Below, piece after piece: positions 7,680-16,512 of a stretch of DNA of 37,017 nt. A program made the translations under genes and the position numbers. This DNA comes from Ferruginibacter sp. (GTDB lineage: Bacteria; Bacteroidota; Bacteroidia; Chitinophagales; Chitinophagaceae). Every line of letters begins with the position of its first letter. The first letter of the stretch is position 1. The stretch covers positions 1 to 37,017 of the forward strand of contig JACMPR010000008.1 in the NCBI GenBank assembly GCA_014377385.1, written 5' to 3'. The notes below the pieces were generated by a model, which did no database searches, had not been told where the DNA came from, and worked only from the letters and a program-made list of their open reading frames with translations.

Positions 7680-8468
7680 TTAACAAGCCAGGGGTAATTC
7701 CCCCTTGATACAGGAAATAAATGCCTTTGTACCATCACCCACAGGCACCTGTGTTCCCAACATTTTTATGTACGCACTTCCAATGATCGCCCCGGCGGCA
7801 TAGCGACATGCATTGTGAAATCGCTCTTGATTGTTAATCCCAAACCCGATCATAACCGGGTTTTGCAGTTGTAATTTTTTAAGCTTTTCAAAATAACGTT
7901 TTTGGCTCGTAATATCCACAGCATTACCTGTAGTAGCCGAAGCCGATACCGCATATAAAAAACCAGTACTCAATTTATCTGCCATCCGGATACGGTGTTC
8001 ACTTGTTTCGGGCGTTATTAAAAAAATAAAAGAGAGCCCGTTCTTTTTAAACAATTGTTTATAATGCTTTTCAAATTGATACATTGGAAGATCTGGTAAA
8101 ATGATACCGCTTACCCCGGCATGACTTGCATCGGCGCAAAATTGTTCTATTCCATACTGCAATACGGGGTTTAGATAACCCATCAAAATAACGGGAATGG
8201 TCATTCGATCTTTAACTGATTCAAGCTGTTTGAAAAGTAAAGGCAGGTTCATGCCGTTATCTAAGGCTACCATATTGCTTTCCTGGATAACGGGACCATC
8301 TGCGATTGGATCTGCATAGGGCATTCCTATTTCAACCATATCAGCACCATGCTGTTCAAGCGCTAACATTACTTCAGCAGTACTATCAAGCTGCGGATAG
8401 CCTGCGGTACAATAAATATTGAGCAGGTTCTCTTTTTTTATTTTGAATTGCTTCTCTAATTGATTCAT
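7680..8468 (-). CDS. trpA: Tryptophan synthase alpha chain
   Basis: YCTAGYPQLDSTAEVMLALEQHGADMVEIGMPYADPIADGPVIQESN ... GFGINNQERFHNACRYAAGAIIGSAYIK. Confidence 0.96.
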   Translation of the reverse strand: MNQLEKQFKIKKENLLNIYCTAGYPQLDSTAEVMLALEQHGADMVEIGMPYADPIADGPVIQESNMVALDNGMNLPLLFKQLESVKDRMTIPVILMGYLNPVLQYGIEQFCADASHAGVSGIILPDLPMYQFEKHYKQLFKKNGLSFIFLITPETSEHRIRMADKLSTGFLYAVSASATTGNAVDITSQKRYFEKLKKLQLQNPVMIGFGINNQERFHNACRYAAGAIIGSAYIKMLGTQVPVGDGTKAFISCIKGELPLAC

Positions 8469-8497
8469 ACTATTATTTATATTTTTTGAATCCAGGC

Positions 8498-8520
8498 TAC
8501 TTCGCCTGACAGGCGAGGTA
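8498..8520. repeat. Intergenic palindrome between trpB and trpA (REP-like)
   Basis: TACTTCGCCT-GAC-AGGCGAGGTA: 10-bp near-perfect inverted repeat with 3-nt loop. Confidence 0.65.
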
Positions 8521-8560
8521 CTATCAGGGAATTTTAAATTAATTTACCTTTAAAGCCTTG

Positions 8561-9772
8561 CTATAAATAGGTCATGTAAGTTGCCAAATCTTTGTCACCT
8601 CTTCCGCTCAAACAAATCACTACGCGGTCGTTTTTTTTAAATGAAATATCTTTCAGTACAGCAAATGCGTGAGCGGTTTCAAGGGCAGGAATAATTCCTT
8701 CTGTCTTCGCAAGGTGAAAAGCGGCCTGCAATGCTTCTTCATCTGTTGCATTTTTAAACAGTACCCTTCCCTGTTTAAAAAGATTTGCATGCAACGGTCC
8801 AATCCCGGGGTAATCGAGGCCCGCTGAAATGCTGTGCGGTTCAGTAACCTGGCCATCGGCTGTTTGCATGAGCAAACTTTTACTTCCATGCAATATGCCG
8901 GTGGTTCCCAGTTGGGTGGTGGCGGCTGTTTTACCGGATGTTAATCCCATGCCGGCAGCTTCTACCGCAATTAATTTTACTTTTTTTTCTTCGATGAAAT
9001 GATAAAAGGCACCTGCTGCGTTGCTACCACCGCCCACGCAGGCTATTACATGCGACGGGCAACGATCACCTGTTTCTTTTAGTAACTGCTGCCTGATTTC
9101 TTTACTGATAATACTTTGAAACCGGGCTACCATATCGGGGTATGGATGTGGGCCAACGACGCTTCCAATGATGTAATGGGTATTGTGAGGGTGGTTGATC
9201 CAATCCCTGATTGCTTCATTTGTTGCATCTTTTAGCGTCTGGCTGCCACTCAATGCTGGTATCACAGTTGCCCCAAGCATTTTCATCCGGGCTACATTGG
9301 GTGCCTGGCGCTCAATGTCTTTGGCACCCATAAACACGATGCACTCAAGTCCCCGCAAAGCACAAACGGTGGCAGTTGCAACTCCATGCTGCCCGGCACC
9401 GGTTTCGGCAATGATTCGTTTTTTGCCCAGCCTCTCAGCCAGCAACACCTGCCCGATGGTGTTGTTAATCTTGTGCGCACCAGTGTGGCACAAGTCTTCC
9501 CGCTTTAGATAAATATTGGTGTTGAATTCTTTGCTTAACCTTTCGGCATGAAACAAGGGTGTTGGCCTGCCTGCAAAATCTTTTAATAAAAGGCTTAACT
9601 CTTTTTTGAAAGAATTTTCCCCGGTTATTTTTTTATACTTTTTTTGAAGCTCCTCCACATTCGGGAAAAGCATTTCAGGAATGTAAGCCCCGCCGAATTC
9701 ACCGTAATATCCATGCTTGTCAGGACGACTTAAATTGTTCTTGTTATTTTTCATAATTAGCTTCTTGTACAT
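8561..9772 (-). CDS. trpB: Tryptophan synthase beta chain
   Basis: GYYGEFGGAYIPEMLFPNVEEL ... KREDLCHTGAHKINNTIGQVLLAERLGKKRIIAETGAGQHGVATAT ... GGGSNAAG; ATG overlaps trpF stop (TAATG); internal Met at 9754 is an alternative start. Confidence 0.97.
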   Translation of the reverse strand: MYKKLIMKNNKNNLSRPDKHGYYGEFGGAYIPEMLFPNVEELQKKYKKITGENSFKKELSLLLKDFAGRPTPLFHAERLSKEFNTNIYLKREDLCHTGAHKINNTIGQVLLAERLGKKRIIAETGAGQHGVATATVCALRGLECIVFMGAKDIERQAPNVARMKMLGATVIPALSGSQTLKDATNEAIRDWINHPHNTHYIIGSVVGPHPYPDMVARFQSIISKEIRQQLLKETGDRCPSHVIACVGGGSNAAGAFYHFIEEKKVKLIAVEAAGMGLTSGKTAATTQLGTTGILHGSKSLLMQTADGQVTEPHSISAGLDYPGIGPLHANLFKQGRVLFKNATDEEALQAAFHLAKTEGIIPALETAHAFAVLKDISFKKNDRVVICLSGRGDKDLATYMTYL

Positions 9773-10401
9773 TATTTCATACCATGCATAAATTTTAATA
9801 CTAAGGCCATATCCTTAACCCCTGGCTCTTTTTCAAAATGGCTGTTCAGATCTACCCCATAAAAATCCGGGTGCTTAAACTTTTTGACAAGGGCCGCATC
9901 TTCCGGACCGATGCCGCCACTTATAAAAAATGGCTTTTCGATCTTACTCTCTTTGATCTTTTGCCAATCAAATTTTTCTCCCGTACCTCCATACATTGTT
10001 GTTGAAGCTGTATCGAACAGATAATAATCACAGGTATCATCGTATTCTTCCAATAAATGGTCAATCGATTTTTTTGTATTTTTTTCTACCCGAAAAACTT
10101 TGATCACTTCTGTTTCCGCAGAAATAGCCTCGCAAAAATCCGGCGTTTCATCTCCATGAAGCTGCACCATATCAAGCCCATAATCTTCTACAGCCTGTAA
10201 AATTCTGTCGTATTCATCATTTACAAACACACCGATCGTCCGGATGTCCATATCCGCAGCTTTGATCTCCTTTTTGGGCATTTTATCGCCAACATAGCGA
10301 GGTGAATCCTTGTGAAAAATGAGGCCGGCAAAATCTATATTCAGCATTTCAAGTTGTTGCAACTGTTTCATGCTTGTAATTCCACACACTTTAATATTCA
10401 T
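9772..10401 (-). CDS. trpF: Phosphoribosylanthranilate isomerase
   Basis: MNIKVCGITSMKQLQQLEMLNIDFAGLIFHKDSPRYV ... VQLHGDETPDFCEAI ... FFISGGIGPEDA. Confidence 0.95.
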   Translation of the reverse strand: MNIKVCGITSMKQLQQLEMLNIDFAGLIFHKDSPRYVGDKMPKKEIKAADMDIRTIGVFVNDEYDRILQAVEDYGLDMVQLHGDETPDFCEAISAETEVIKVFRVEKNTKKSIDHLLEEYDDTCDYYLFDTASTTMYGGTGEKFDWQKIKESKIEKPFFISGGIGPEDAALVKKFKHPDFYGVDLNSHFEKEPGVKDMALVLKFMHGMK

Positions 10402-10433
10402 TGTTGAAGTTTTTTCTATTTGGCAATGTCGGT

Positions 10434-11228
10434 TTATTTCTTTGAAGCATCGCTTAATTGTGCCGCAAATACTTCAAAAGCTTTTCCGGGGTCGGGTTCT
10501 TTCATAAAATACTCACCTATCAAAAAGCCCTTGTAGCCGGCGTCTTTGAACCTCATAATAGTTTCTATGTTATCAATACCGCTTTCTGCAATTTTAATCA
10601 TTTCAAGGGGAATCAATTTACTCAACGCGATGGCATTGTAAATATCCACTTCAAAAGTTTTTAAATTACGATTATTAATTCCAACCATGTCAATATTATG
10701 ATTTATGTGCCCGAGCTCGGCCTCGTCGTGAATTTCCAGCAATACTTCAAGCCCAAGCTGTTTTGCATAAGCAGCTAACTCTTTTACTTCCCCGGCAGAC
10801 AAGCACGCAGCGATCAATAATATTACATCTGCACCCATTGCCTTAGATTCTGTAAGCTGGTACTTGTCGATAATGAATTCTTTTCTTAAAACAGGAACCT
10901 GGTTATCGCTCGCGAGCAAAAAGTCTTCTCTGGTACCTCCAAAAAACAGTTGGTCTGTAAGCACCGACAAACCTGCGGCCCCGTACCTTGCATAATCAGC
11001 CGTTACTTTATCTACAGGCGCAAATGAATTAATGATGCCTTTCGACGGCGACTTTCTTTTAAACTCTGCTATAATGCCTGTTGTATTCCCTAAAGCCAAT
11101 ACCTGTTTTAAAGAAATAATTTTTCTTTCAAAAGCGGGTGATGAAAAAAGTGTTTCCTCTAGTACTGACGATTTAAGGACTTCCACTTCTCTCCTTTTAT
11201 GCGCAATTATTTTGTCGAGTAAATTCAT
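10434..11228 (-). CDS. trpC: Indole-3-glycerol phosphate synthase
   Basis: MNLLDKIIAHKRREVEVLKSSV ... IAEFKRKSPSKGIIN ... VLRKEFIIDKYQLTESKAMGADVILLIAA ... GINNRNLKTFEVD ... IAESGID. Confidence 0.96.
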   Translation of the reverse strand: MNLLDKIIAHKRREVEVLKSSVLEETLFSSPAFERKIISLKQVLALGNTTGIIAEFKRKSPSKGIINSFAPVDKVTADYARYGAAGLSVLTDQLFFGGTREDFLLASDNQVPVLRKEFIIDKYQLTESKAMGADVILLIAACLSAGEVKELAAYAKQLGLEVLLEIHDEAELGHINHNIDMVGINNRNLKTFEVDIYNAIALSKLIPLEMIKIAESGIDNIETIMRFKDAGYKGFLIGEYFMKEPDPGKAFEVFAAQLSDASKK

Positions 11229-11231
11229 GCG

Positions 11232-12218
11232 TTAAGGGATTAAAGTTTTCAGAGAATTATAAGCAGCACCACTCTCCAGGCTTTCTACTGCGAGTTGATA
11301 GCAGGTTTCATAGTCATTGTATTTTCCGGTGCAATGCAATCCCATAGCTGCATTTGAAATAACAACGGCATTCTGCGCCCAGCTGCCTTCGCCCCTGATA
11401 ATTTTTAAAAATATTTTAGCTGACTCTTCTACCGTGCTGCCTCCCAAAATATCGGAAGCAGCAACCAATCTTTTACCCAAAGCAGTTGCACTCATCATTT
11501 TTTCGCCTTGCCTTGTAATTACTTTTGTATCTCCGGTTAATGAGATTTCGTCATACCCTTCCATGCTGTGAACAATCGTGTAAGACGAAGTTTCCTCTTG
11601 CAACAAATAATTATAGATACGGGCCATTTCCAGGTTATAGACGCCAACCAGCCGGTGCGCCGGGGCAGCAGGATTTACCAGAGGGCCCAACATATTAAAG
11701 AACGTACGAACTCCCAGATTTTTACGGACAATTCCTACTGCTTTTAAGGCCGGGTGAAACAGGGGCGCATGAAGGAAACAAATATTTGCTGTTTCTAATT
11801 CTTTATTCAGTTGATCACTGTTAGTAGTAAAGTGATAGCCCAGCTGCTGCATCAGATCCGACGCCCCACTTACCGAAGACGCTCCATAATTTCCATGCTT
11901 GGCAACTTTGTTGCCGGTACCTGCAACGATAAAACTGCTTAATGTTGAAATATTAAACGTATTTTTTCCATCTCCGCCAGTGCCCACGATATCAAGTAAC
12001 TGGTTGTCTTTTAAATCAACCGGGGTACAGAGTTGCAATAGTGCATCTTTAAAGCCAAGTAATTCTTCAATGGTAATACTACGCATAAGGTACACTGTTA
12101 TAAAAGCAGTAACCTCGTGTTCGGTGTATGAATTACCGGAAATATTCTTCAATACTTCTGCAGCCTGCTGCCTGCTCAGGCTTTTGTATTCAAATAAATG
12201 TTGCAATATTTTTTTCAT
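11232..12218 (-). CDS. trpD: Anthranilate phosphoribosyltransferase
   Basis: LLDIVGTGGDGKNTFNISTLSSFIVAGTGNKVAKHGNYGASSVSGASDLMQQLGYHF ... RTFFNMLGPLVNPAAPAHRLVGVY. Confidence 0.96.
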   Translation of the reverse strand: MKKILQHLFEYKSLSRQQAAEVLKNISGNSYTEHEVTAFITVYLMRSITIEELLGFKDALLQLCTPVDLKDNQLLDIVGTGGDGKNTFNISTLSSFIVAGTGNKVAKHGNYGASSVSGASDLMQQLGYHFTTNSDQLNKELETANICFLHAPLFHPALKAVGIVRKNLGVRTFFNMLGPLVNPAAPAHRLVGVYNLEMARIYNYLLQEETSSYTIVHSMEGYDEISLTGDTKVITRQGEKMMSATALGKRLVAASDILGGSTVEESAKIFLKIIRGEGSWAQNAVVISNAAMGLHCTGKYNDYETCYQLAVESLESGAAYNSLKTLIP

Positions 12219-12277
12219 AATTGTACGTTAAAAGAAACAAAATTTACTTACTTCACACAAAGGAGCCGCGGTCTGAA

Positions 12278-12856
12278 TTAATATGAAAGCCAGTTCCTGA
12301 TAAGCGTTTCGCCGCAGGGCGTGAGTACGCTTTCCGGGTGAAACTGTACGCCCTGAACATCAAAACTTTCATGTTGAACAGACATGATGTAACCGTTCCC
12401 GTCAACAGAGGTAATCTGTAACGCCGGGGGTAAATCCTTCCGGGAGATGATCCAGCTGTGATACCTGCCCGCCATCATTTCAGGATAGAGCCCTTTAAAA
12501 AGTATCGACTGTTGTGCTATTATTTTCACAGGGGTGGCAATACCATGGAAAACAATGTCCAGATTTTCCAGCGTTGCTCCAAAAGCCTCTCCAATGGCCT
12601 GGTGTCCGAGGCATACACCCAGGATCGATTTAGTGGCAGCGTATTCTTTTATTAAAGGCAATAATAAATTTGCTTCAACAGGTATCCCGGGGCCGGGTGA
12701 TAAAATTATCTTATCATATTTCTTTACAGCTTCAAGTTCAATCTCGTCATTTCTAAAAACATCGATTTTTGTATGTACTATTTTTTCAACCAGGTGTACC
12801 AGGTTATAAGTGAAGGAATCATAATTGTCAAATACAAGAATTTTTGTAACAGCCAT
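12278..12856 (-). CDS. trpG: Anthranilate synthase component II (glutamine amidotransferase)
   Basis: ILVFDNYDSFTYNLVHLVE ... IILSPGPGIP ... ILGVCLGHQAIGEAFG ... GVQFHPESVLTPCGETLIRNW. Confidence 0.96.
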   Translation of the reverse strand: MAVTKILVFDNYDSFTYNLVHLVEKIVHTKIDVFRNDEIELEAVKKYDKIILSPGPGIPVEANLLLPLIKEYAATKSILGVCLGHQAIGEAFGATLENLDIVFHGIATPVKIIAQQSILFKGLYPEMMAGRYHSWIISRKDLPPALQITSVDGNGYIMSVQHESFDVQGVQFHPESVLTPCGETLIRNWLSY

Positions 12857-12861
12857 AATTG

Positions 12862-14283
12862 TTAATTTGATATAGTTTGAGCAAGCACAACTGCATTTTT
12901 CAGTGCACGTAATTTATTATTTACCTCCTGTAATTCATCCTCTGGTTTACTGGCAGCGACGATCCCCGCACCGGCCTGGCTGACCAATGTATTGTTTTTG
13001 CTTAAAAATGTCCTGATCATGATGGCATGATTACAACTGCCATTAAAGCCAATATATCCGATCATCCCGCCATAAAAGCCACGAGCAGTTTCTTCATTTT
13101 CGTCTATCAACTGCATGGCTTTATACTTTGGCGCCCCACTGAGCGTGCCGGCGGGAAAAGTAGCACCCAGGATCTTAAATGGATTTTTTTCCTGCCCAAG
13201 TTGTCCCTGCACCTCACTAACAAGGTGTATCACATGAGAATAATAATTAACTTTTTTAAATTGTGTAACAATAACGTTGGTGCATACCCGACTAAGGTCA
13301 TTTCTCGCAAGATCAACCAACATCACATGCTCAGCATTTTCCTTTACGTCGCTTTCAAGTTCAATGGCCAGCTGTTTGTCTGTATCATCATCACCGGTAC
13401 GTTTAAACGTTCCGGCGATCGGGTGAACAATGGCGATATTATTTTGGATAATCAGTTGGCTCTCCGGAGAGGAGCCCATTAGCTTGTAATCCCCGTAATC
13501 GAAATAAAAAAGATACGGACTGGGATTGATGCTTCGCAGGGCCCTGTACACATTAAATTCATCACCGGTGAAGGGCTGGCTGAAGCGGCGGCTTAGAACT
13601 ACCTGGAAACTGTCTCCGCGCTGGCAAGCGGCAATTCCATTAGTGACCATATTTTTATATACGTCATCCGAAATGGAAGAGCGCTCTTCGCCGGCCACCC
13701 GAAAAGGAAAGGCAGGAACATCCTTGTTTTTAATGAGGCTCTCTACATCCTCTACTCCACTTTCCAGTCCTGCAAAATGATGCTCGCAAATATATAATTC
13801 GTCTTTAAAATGATCAATTACAATCACGTATTGGTAAAGCCGGTATCGAATCAAAGGTATCGACATGGCGTCATCCGCCTTAGCCTGCAACTTTATTTTT
13901 TCAAAAAAAGGAATGGAATCATAACAGGTGTAGCCAAAAATACCCTGAGCAATCTTTACAGGTTTGAGGATAGCTTCTTCCGTTTGAAAACGCTGTAAAA
14001 AGTCGTACATGATATCTGCAACAACCGCATCTTTACCGAGATTTATTTTCTCAGGTTGTTTTGCAGGAAGTTTAAATTCGAGGATCAAAGGATCGATCAC
14101 TTCAATTCCCGCGATCGCATTAACGCCGATAATAGAATAATTATTTTCCCCTGCATGAAAGTCAGTACTTTCCAGCAGGATCGTATCCCGGAAGCGATCA
14201 CGCAGCCGAAGGTAAATTCCAACAGGAGTATAAATATCTCCCAGCATTTTTTTATAGGTCGTGGTAAAAATTATTTTTTTCAT
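12862..14283 (-). CDS. trpE: Anthranilate synthase component I
   Basis: FQVVLSRRFSQPFTGDEFNVYRALRSINPSPYLFYFDYGDYKLMGSSPESQL ... HPIAGTFKRTGDDDTDKQLAIELESDVKENAEHVMLVDLARNDLSRVC ... PAGTLSGAPKYKAMQLIDE. Confidence 0.97.
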   Translation of the reverse strand: MKKIIFTTTYKKMLGDIYTPVGIYLRLRDRFRDTILLESTDFHAGENNYSIIGVNAIAGIEVIDPLILEFKLPAKQPEKINLGKDAVVADIMYDFLQRFQTEEAILKPVKIAQGIFGYTCYDSIPFFEKIKLQAKADDAMSIPLIRYRLYQYVIVIDHFKDELYICEHHFAGLESGVEDVESLIKNKDVPAFPFRVAGEERSSISDDVYKNMVTNGIAACQRGDSFQVVLSRRFSQPFTGDEFNVYRALRSINPSPYLFYFDYGDYKLMGSSPESQLIIQNNIAIVHPIAGTFKRTGDDDTDKQLAIELESDVKENAEHVMLVDLARNDLSRVCTNVIVTQFKKVNYYSHVIHLVSEVQGQLGQEKNPFKILGATFPAGTLSGAPKYKAMQLIDENEETARGFYGGMIGYIGFNGSCNHAIMIRTFLSKNNTLVSQAGAGIVAASKPEDELQEVNNKLRALKNAVVLAQTISN

Positions 14284-14309: not shown

Positions 14310-14336
14310 AAAAAACCCCAACGTTGTGTCGGGGCT
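14310..14336 (-). terminator. Attenuator (Rho-independent terminator hairpin) in trpE leader
   Basis: Minus-strand AG-CCCCGAC-ACAAC-GTTGGGG-TTTTTT: 7-bp stem, 5-nt loop, six U's, ending about 27 nt before the trpE ATG. Confidence 0.8.
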
Positions 14337-14361
14337 AAAATATTCGGTAACAGGAATAAAG

Positions 14362-14424
14362 TTATGACACATCAATGTACAATATCTGCCAAAGCCAACT
14401 TCCTGTGTGTATGTTTGTAATCAT
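14362..14424 (-). CDS. trpL: Putative trp leader peptide, 20 aa: MITNIHTGSWLWQILYIDVS*
   Basis: Minus-strand ATG ATT ACA AAC ATA CAC ACA GGA AGT TGG CTT TGG CAG ATA TTG TAC ATT GAT GTG TCA TAA; two Trp codons (14395-14397, 14389-14391), followed by terminator hairpin and trpE. Too short for the supplied ORF track. Confidence 0.75.
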   Translation of the reverse strand: MITNIHTGSWLWQILYIDVS

Positions 14425-14494
14425 TTCTACTGCAAATATGGAGGAGAAATCCGGATTTAAAAAAGATTTTTACTTAATTCAGGAAAATGAAAAT

Positions 14495-14848
14495 ATGCGG
14501 ATAAATAAAAATATGACGCCTAACGGCCACATATTTTTTGTTGAAGGAGCCAGTCAAAGGCTGGCAGCGCTTGATTTTAGGATATCTTCCGGCGTCATGA
14601 TGATTGAACTCACGGAAGCAGAAGACAGGCAAAAGGGCAAATATGTTAAGTATGAACTGGTTGAGCACGCGGCTGTATATACCAGGGAAAAACACCTGAA
14701 GGTCATGCGCATTCAACCTCTGCCAGGGCCATTTTTGATAAAAGAAAGAGGAGTTCGGGGATGTCGAGGTTACGAAACCATCGCTTTAAGATTGCTTTAC
14801 CTGAGTTTGGTTGACTATGTTTTTTTGTTTGTCTGCATCAGGTGTTAA
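14495..14848 (+). CDS. Hypothetical protein (start uncertain; tracked ORF begins 14375 but that would overlap the trp leader antisense)
   Basis: ORF track 14375-14848; MRINKNMTPNGHIFFVEGASQRLAALDFRISSGVMMIELTEAEDRQKGKYVKYEL...; no family recognised; competing ORF on opposite strand 14474-14716. Confidence 0.3.
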   Translation: MRINKNMTPNGHIFFVEGASQRLAALDFRISSGVMMIELTEAEDRQKGKYVKYELVEHAAVYTREKHLKVMRIQPLPGPFLIKERGVRGCRGYETIALRLLYLSLVDYVFLFVCIRC

Positions 14849-16095: not shown

Positions 16096-16277
16096 GATGA
16101 TTTTTCAGAACCCGGGAAAGGGTTTTATTTTAAAGTTGAAGAACAAAATTCCATTACAAAACTAATCCAATTAACAGATTATCCTGTAAAATATTTAGGT
16201 TATTCAGCAAGAGAAAAAGAAATAGGCTTATTTGTGAACGTCTTTATAGCCAGGTGGAGATTTGAGGAAATAAAAAA

Positions 16278-16374
16278 CGGCAAGTTACTTACATCGCACC
16301 GCTCAACCATCTACCCTTGCTACCTTCCGGTCCTGGGGGAGTTCAACAGGAGCTGGTCGTATAAGACTTGCCGG
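16278..16374 (-). ncRNA. ffs: Signal recognition particle RNA (small bacterial / 4.5S type)
   Basis: Minus strand CCGGCAAGTCTTATACGACCAGCTCCTGTTGAACTCCCCCAGGACCGGAAGGTAGCAAGGGTAGATGGTTGAGCGGTGCGATGTAAGTAACTTGCCGTTTTTT: conserved 'CAGGACCGGAAGGTAGCAAGGG' apical region, GGCAAGT/ACTTGCC terminal stem, U-tract. Confidence 0.9.
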
Positions 16375-16512
16375 CTGCAAATATAGGGGAATGGTTTGAA
16401 ATTAAAAGATTTGAAGTACAATTTGAATTGAAAATTTAAATGCCAAGAACCTCCACCGTTTTTACGGGATTTTCAACCCAAGAAAAGTTTACATATTCCG
16501 GTTCCCCTATCT

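Follow-up and report, generated by a model that had tools for sequence, protein, structure and literature searches.

A probable tryptophan-codon transcription attenuator ahead of the trp operon in Ferruginibacter and its relatives in the Bacteroidia

The enterobacterial trp attenuator (E. coli trpL; Rfam Trp_leader) is built from a short ORF with Trp codons and from competing stems, in which a U-tailed terminator loses its 5' arm to an antiterminator and the position of the ribosome serves as the sensor. Classical attenuation needs a ribosome that closely trails RNA polymerase. Attenuators in Bacteroidetes/Chlorobi have reportedly been listed by Vitreschak et al. in 2004. The Rfam family RF01692, Bacteroid-trp (Weinberg et al. 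2010, PMC2864571), lies before trpE in Bacteroidota, and its members have WWW leaders (e.g. MRTILNNTWWWNNLRQTS) and a terminator with pairing between the leader and the terminator loop. In the same phylum, the main text on Flavobacterium psychrophilum (PMC9723704) speaks of "strong clues" of leader-peptide attenuation before amino-acid operons but names no trp element or structure. Leader-peptide attenuation has been hinted at in B. thetaiotaomicron (PMC7366714), and the main text of Naville and Gautheret 2010 (PMC2965389) deals with neither Bacteroidetes nor trp. The trpLE(G) system of Sinorhizobium meliloti (PMC7298713), which is alphaproteobacterial, has a leaderless trp leader peptide, with attenuation as the sole control.

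The DNA analyzed here, called the window, is a stretch of 37,017 nucleotides from Ferruginibacter sp. (contig JACMPR010000008.1). Its minus strand carries a trp operon that opens with trpE (anthranilate synthase component I, 12862..14283; Pfam Anth_synt_I_N and Chorismate_bind) and continues with trpG, trpD, trpC, trpF, trpB and trpA (7680..12856), the gene order trpE, G, D, C, F, B, A being upheld by Pfam and NCBIfam. Along the minus strand there follow one another a -33-like element, a -7 box, a leader ORF, a spacer, a terminator and then trpE from 14283. From the sequence comparisons described below, we put the probability that the element ahead of this operon is a ribosome-mediated transcription attenuator at roughly nine in ten. 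The comparisons used the regions upstream of trpE in 109 loci of the same family, 27 extra loci of the same genus and some 50 from the class; the same-genus relatives number 29 (L003, L004 and L180-L206), and one locus (L149), for which the wrong end of trpE had been taken, was excluded. The trpE of the window is 56-74% identical to the relatives' trpE at the closest loci. About half of the sampled genus genomes carry no trpE resembling that of the window, which suggests many Trp auxotrophs or incomplete assemblies. On the plus strand, an ORF at 14375-14848 points away from trp and has a sub-threshold match to a GCN5-like acetyltransferase (E 5.8e-5); because its first ATG overlaps the trp leader of the opposite strand, its real start is probably further in, near or beyond the trp promoter. 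Elsewhere in the window, a Bacteroidales_small_SRP RNA (Rfam RF04183) is found at 16274-16380 on the minus strand with 94 bits.

The leader ORF (MITNIHTGSWLWQILYIDVS*, 20 codons, 14362..14424, minus strand) runs from an ATG at 14424 to the stop codon TAA at 14364-14362 and is identified by its Trp cluster and by its homologous position in relatives. It contains the putative regulatory codons TGG CTT TGG (Trp-Leu-Trp, 14389..14397, minus strand), with the individual TGG codons at 14397-14395 and 14391-14389; the ORF thereby has the enrichment in codons for the end product of the pathway that a ribosome-mediated attenuator shows. The short ORF with Trp codons that the initial annotation had pointed out has same-position counterparts in nearly all relatives: a Trp-cluster leader ORF precedes trpE in 106 of 109 family loci and in 28 of 29 same-genus relatives (the exception being L190). 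The cluster is WWW in most relatives and WW, WCW or WLW otherwise. A short ORF with WW or WLW starts with ATG in 105 of the 109 family loci and with GTG in L074; L090 and L092 have single-Trp leaders, and in L103 the leader is absent. Most of the family shares the leader consensus MK...NNxWWWHTNSxRGL*, and by this comparison the WLW of the window is a reduced form of the usual WWW cluster. Two loci from another family of the class, L134 and L135, have leaders that begin MINNIHTWLWQ... and MINNIHAWLWQ..., with WLW and NIH in common with the window's MITNIHTGSWLWQ.

Taken by itself, the window leader, with WLW and thus two Trp codons that are not adjacent, is only mildly unusual, as a short ORF with W.{0,2}W arises in 1.65% of shuffles of the window's own upstream region. 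It is the relatives, and not the window alone, that place the leader ORF beyond chance: such an ORF occurs in 123 of 127 relatives' regions against 5.3% of their shuffles, and WWW occurs in 109 of 127 against 0% of shuffles and none of 460 window tiles. These figures bear on an alternative in which the ORF and the terminator form part of a small RNA or an upstream unit, the trpE promoter lies downstream and the Trp codons are coincidental. A U-tailed hairpin before a gene could indeed just close an upstream transcript, but the neighbor upstream of trpE is read in the opposite direction, and the Trp-cluster rate is far above chance. Moreover, the Trp cluster, promoter box, terminator and trpE occur together in nearly all relatives, and their linkage persists although the gap from the ORF stop to trpE, 78 nt in the window, runs from 67 to more than 400 nt in relatives. 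We consider this alternative very improbable.

A predicted promoter lies directly ahead of the ORF. Its -7 box (CATATTTG, 14433..14440, minus strand) is located 8 nt before the leader AUG and follows the Bacteroidota sigma-A consensus TAnnTTTG, while a -33-like TTTT element (14461..14464, minus strand) corresponds to a family consensus of an A-tract and then TTT(G/T) that sits 28-31 nt ahead of the final base of that box. The box was aligned in 116 loci by its final G and TT, and the free columns flanking this anchor show CATA and C at 71-95%. The gap between CATATTTGC and the ATG is 7 nt in 52 of 98 family loci, and the box lies 8-9 nt from the ATG in 18 of 29 genus loci. Since the TAnnTTTG box in F. 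psychrophilum lies at -12 to -5 (PMC9723704), transcription is predicted to start 3-4 nt ahead of the leader's AUG, which would make the leader RNA nearly leaderless. A sigma-70 scan found no site, as expected for Bacteroidota. Unlike E. coli trpL, the leader thus has its AUG almost at the predicted transcription start and has no Shine-Dalgarno sequence; the S. meliloti RNA differs in starting at the AUG itself.

Between the ORF and the first structural gene lies the intrinsic terminator (AGCCCCGACACAACGTTGGGGTT followed by a U run, 14310..14336, minus strand), as a ribosome-mediated attenuator has it. The hairpin CCCCGAC/GTTGGGG, whose TTTTTT ends at 14310, is present just before trpE exactly as first described, and the terminator scan found no other terminator-like site in 501 bp. 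Its arms covary in relatives: across 68 aligned leaders 95.8% of the cells are paired, 8 of 9 pairs show double changes, and double-change cells number 61, where shuffles give 16.1 +/- 4.7 (0/500). RNAalifold on the same 68 leaders returns the terminator, a trivial 3-pair hairpin and nothing else, which is expected where two structures compete. This conserved U-tailed terminator with covarying arms speaks against translational coupling, or control of trpE translation by the leader peptide, in place of transcription termination. Leader genes close to a start codon can help reinitiation (PMC4833913), but the stop codon here is 78 nt from trpE and in relatives up to more than 400 nt away, and we regard control at the level of translation as no more probable than the upstream unit considered above. 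In L090 and L092, about 100 nt before trpE, the single-Trp leader (e.g. MKLNQTNNGWHIIPFQG*) is accompanied by a retained CAGGGG strand and terminator.

The candidate antiterminator strand UGUGUC (14366..14371, minus strand) starts 17 nt past the last Trp codon, and its partner GACACA (14325..14330, minus strand), supported by duplex swapping, lies in the loop of the terminator and the inner part of its 5' arm. The genus loci have GUGUC or GUGCC as the antiterminator strand, located at the stop codon or immediately after it, and GACAC or GGCAC as the partner. The matched pairs are CGTGCC:GGCACG in L183, CGTGTC:GACACG in L186 and L193, TTGTGCC:GGCACAA in L003, L184 and L203, and TGTGTC:GACACA in the window. 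Most family loci have, at the ORF end (CGGGGC...), a duplicate of the terminator 3' arm that is thereby able to pair with the 5' arm. Counting in fixed columns gave weak covariation for the antiterminator, because it is shifted by one base between RGL-type and SGVL-type leaders, and alignment-free duplex swapping was used in place of column counting. With kinship ignored, own partners paired better than swapped ones in the genus (-12.0 vs -9.85 +/- 0.34 kcal/mol), the family (-14.5 vs -12.5 +/- 0.23 kcal/mol) and the class (-12.1 vs -9.5 +/- 0.36 kcal/mol), with 0/20,000 in each case; three control pairings between unrelated regions showed no own-over-swapped excess. Several unrelated sequence solutions of one pairing make shared ancestry a poor explanation. 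The compensatory changes in the genus and the preference for own partners argue for the pairing of UGUGUC with GACACA that the initial annotation had proposed. In the window this duplex has 6 bp and -8.7 kcal/mol and is weaker than the terminator. In L016, L025, L031 and L058 the antiterminator strand (CGGGG or TGGGG) gives the leader peptide one more Trp codon at its C-terminal end.

A further stem would compete with the antiterminator. ACAGGAA (14400..14406, minus strand), just before the Trp codons, is its 5' strand and UUCCUGU (14350..14356, minus strand) its 3' strand, and within it an inner stem joins UGGCA (14391-14387) to UGUCA (14369-14365), spanning 14365..14391 on the minus strand; the UGGCA arm includes the second Trp codon. 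Both stems are in the minimum-energy fold, where the inner one covers the antiterminator strand and would hide it in the absence of a ribosome. Shuffled versions of the leader RNA fold less well than the leader itself (z -2.34, 2/200). The competing stem, which had also been proposed from the window, has counterparts in relatives by the swap test, own pairing being set against swapped pairing at 0/20,000 in the family and 26/20,000 in the genus with kinship ignored. The ORF, the Trp codons and the hairpins are all kept in close relatives, whose lack of them had been named beforehand as a ground for giving up the attenuator, and every coordinate in the initial annotation is correct to the base.

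The spacing of these parts agrees with a ribosome as the sensor. Among genus loci the midpoint of the antiterminator lies 18.5 nt past the last Trp codon with an sd of 1.0, against an sd of 4.2 nt when measured from the stop codon; by this spacing the strand is anchored to the Trp codons and not to the stop codon, as stalling of a ribosome requires. In 100% of genus and family loci the antiterminator begins 10 nt or more beyond the last Trp codon, and in 99-100% of them it lies within the footprint that a ribosome would have at the stop codon; in the genus it falls just beyond the footprint expected for a Trp-stalled ribosome. When the window leader was folded with the ribosome blocked in, the nascent antiterminator had 7.2 and 7.3 pairs with the ribosome at the two Trp codons, 0.95 with it at the stop and 0.27 without a ribosome, in a test that blocks the very strand that the hypothesis blocks and so checks geometry only. 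Folding of the genus and family loci gave the same pattern, and across genus loci the nascent antiterminator formed in all with the ribosome at Trp and in 10% with it at the stop. An antiterminator that excludes the terminator, is exposed at a stall and is covered at the stop is thus indicated by comparison and by folding, and the earlier proposal that a stalled ribosome would free UGUGUC and one at the stop would mask it fits both. Once complete, the terminator prevails at equilibrium whatever the ribosome state, so the switch must be kinetic.

In the mechanism that we propose, transcription would begin about 4 nt before the AUG, and a ribosome, with no Shine-Dalgarno sequence to guide it, would immediately start translating the 20 codons of the leader. 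With charged tRNA-Trp scarce, it would stall on UGG CUU UGG and block both ACAGGAA:UUCCUGU and UGGCA:UGUCA, and UGUGUC, 17-22 nt further on, would stay free. UGUGUC would then pair with GACACA once that is transcribed; with the terminator's 5' arm captured in this way, RNA polymerase would enter trpE. With plentiful Trp, the ribosome would reach the stop codon and cover UGUGUC; with no ribosome, UGUGUC would be held by the competing stem. Whenever UGUGUC is unavailable the terminator would form, and transcription would stop near 14310. We infer the transcription start, the translation of the ORF, the stalling and the Trp-dependent readthrough from sequence; together, the elements with their conservation, covariation and spacing support the enterobacterial type of attenuation logic first suggested for this leader. 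Because the leader and the RNA switch are common to nearly all relatives, the trp genes are very probably controlled by Trp and, as in E. coli, switched on only when tryptophan is short.

TrpR, TRAP and T-boxes govern trp operons in other bacteria, and such a sensor could act here with the ORF as a passenger; it would, however, leave the spacing between Trp codons and antiterminator unexplained. TRAP (TrpBP) was absent from 21 of 21 genomes while the positive control, Bacillus subtilis, matched. Trp_repressor (TrpR) was not found in the window genome (G000, 84% complete) or in the 12 sampled genus relatives, and one distant member of the order scored above the cut-off. Rfam covariance models gave no T-box match at the leader, either at the gathering threshold or at E up to 10. 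Another Trp sensor is in our estimate the least probable of the alternatives, slightly behind the other two.

The attenuator reading, in turn, places the element in a known kind, as assessed against prior literature in open-licence papers. At the gathering threshold and at E up to 10, Rfam gave no relevant match at the leader site, and the Trp_leader covariance model, too, does not match. RF01692 matches 17 of 198 genomes of a phylum sample, all in one other family, with no match in the window (E up to 10) or in 20 sampled family loci, and it differs from the present element in leader sequence and in antiterminator. The arrangement, judged by sequence, spans the Bacteroidia, with part of it already covered by Rfam (RF01692). 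In contrast to E. coli trpL, the antiterminator strand here is placed inside the ORF or right at its end, and much of the present family uses a copy of the terminator 3' arm (CGGGGC) for it. A broader generalization, for and against which we see about equal odds, is that trp attenuation without Shine-Dalgarno sequences is Bacteroidia-wide, with a near-leaderless 5' end and an antiterminator that is encoded in the final codons, keeps a constant spacing to the Trp codons and often copies the terminator 3' arm, so that a single ribosome position would set the switch.

These results add a leader-peptide gene and a control element that Rfam lacks for the present family. A class-wide attenuator read by ribosomes that do not use Shine-Dalgarno sequences would be a natural reporter of transcription-translation coupling in Bacteroidota, and it would likewise report on initiation on nearly leaderless RNA in this phylum.
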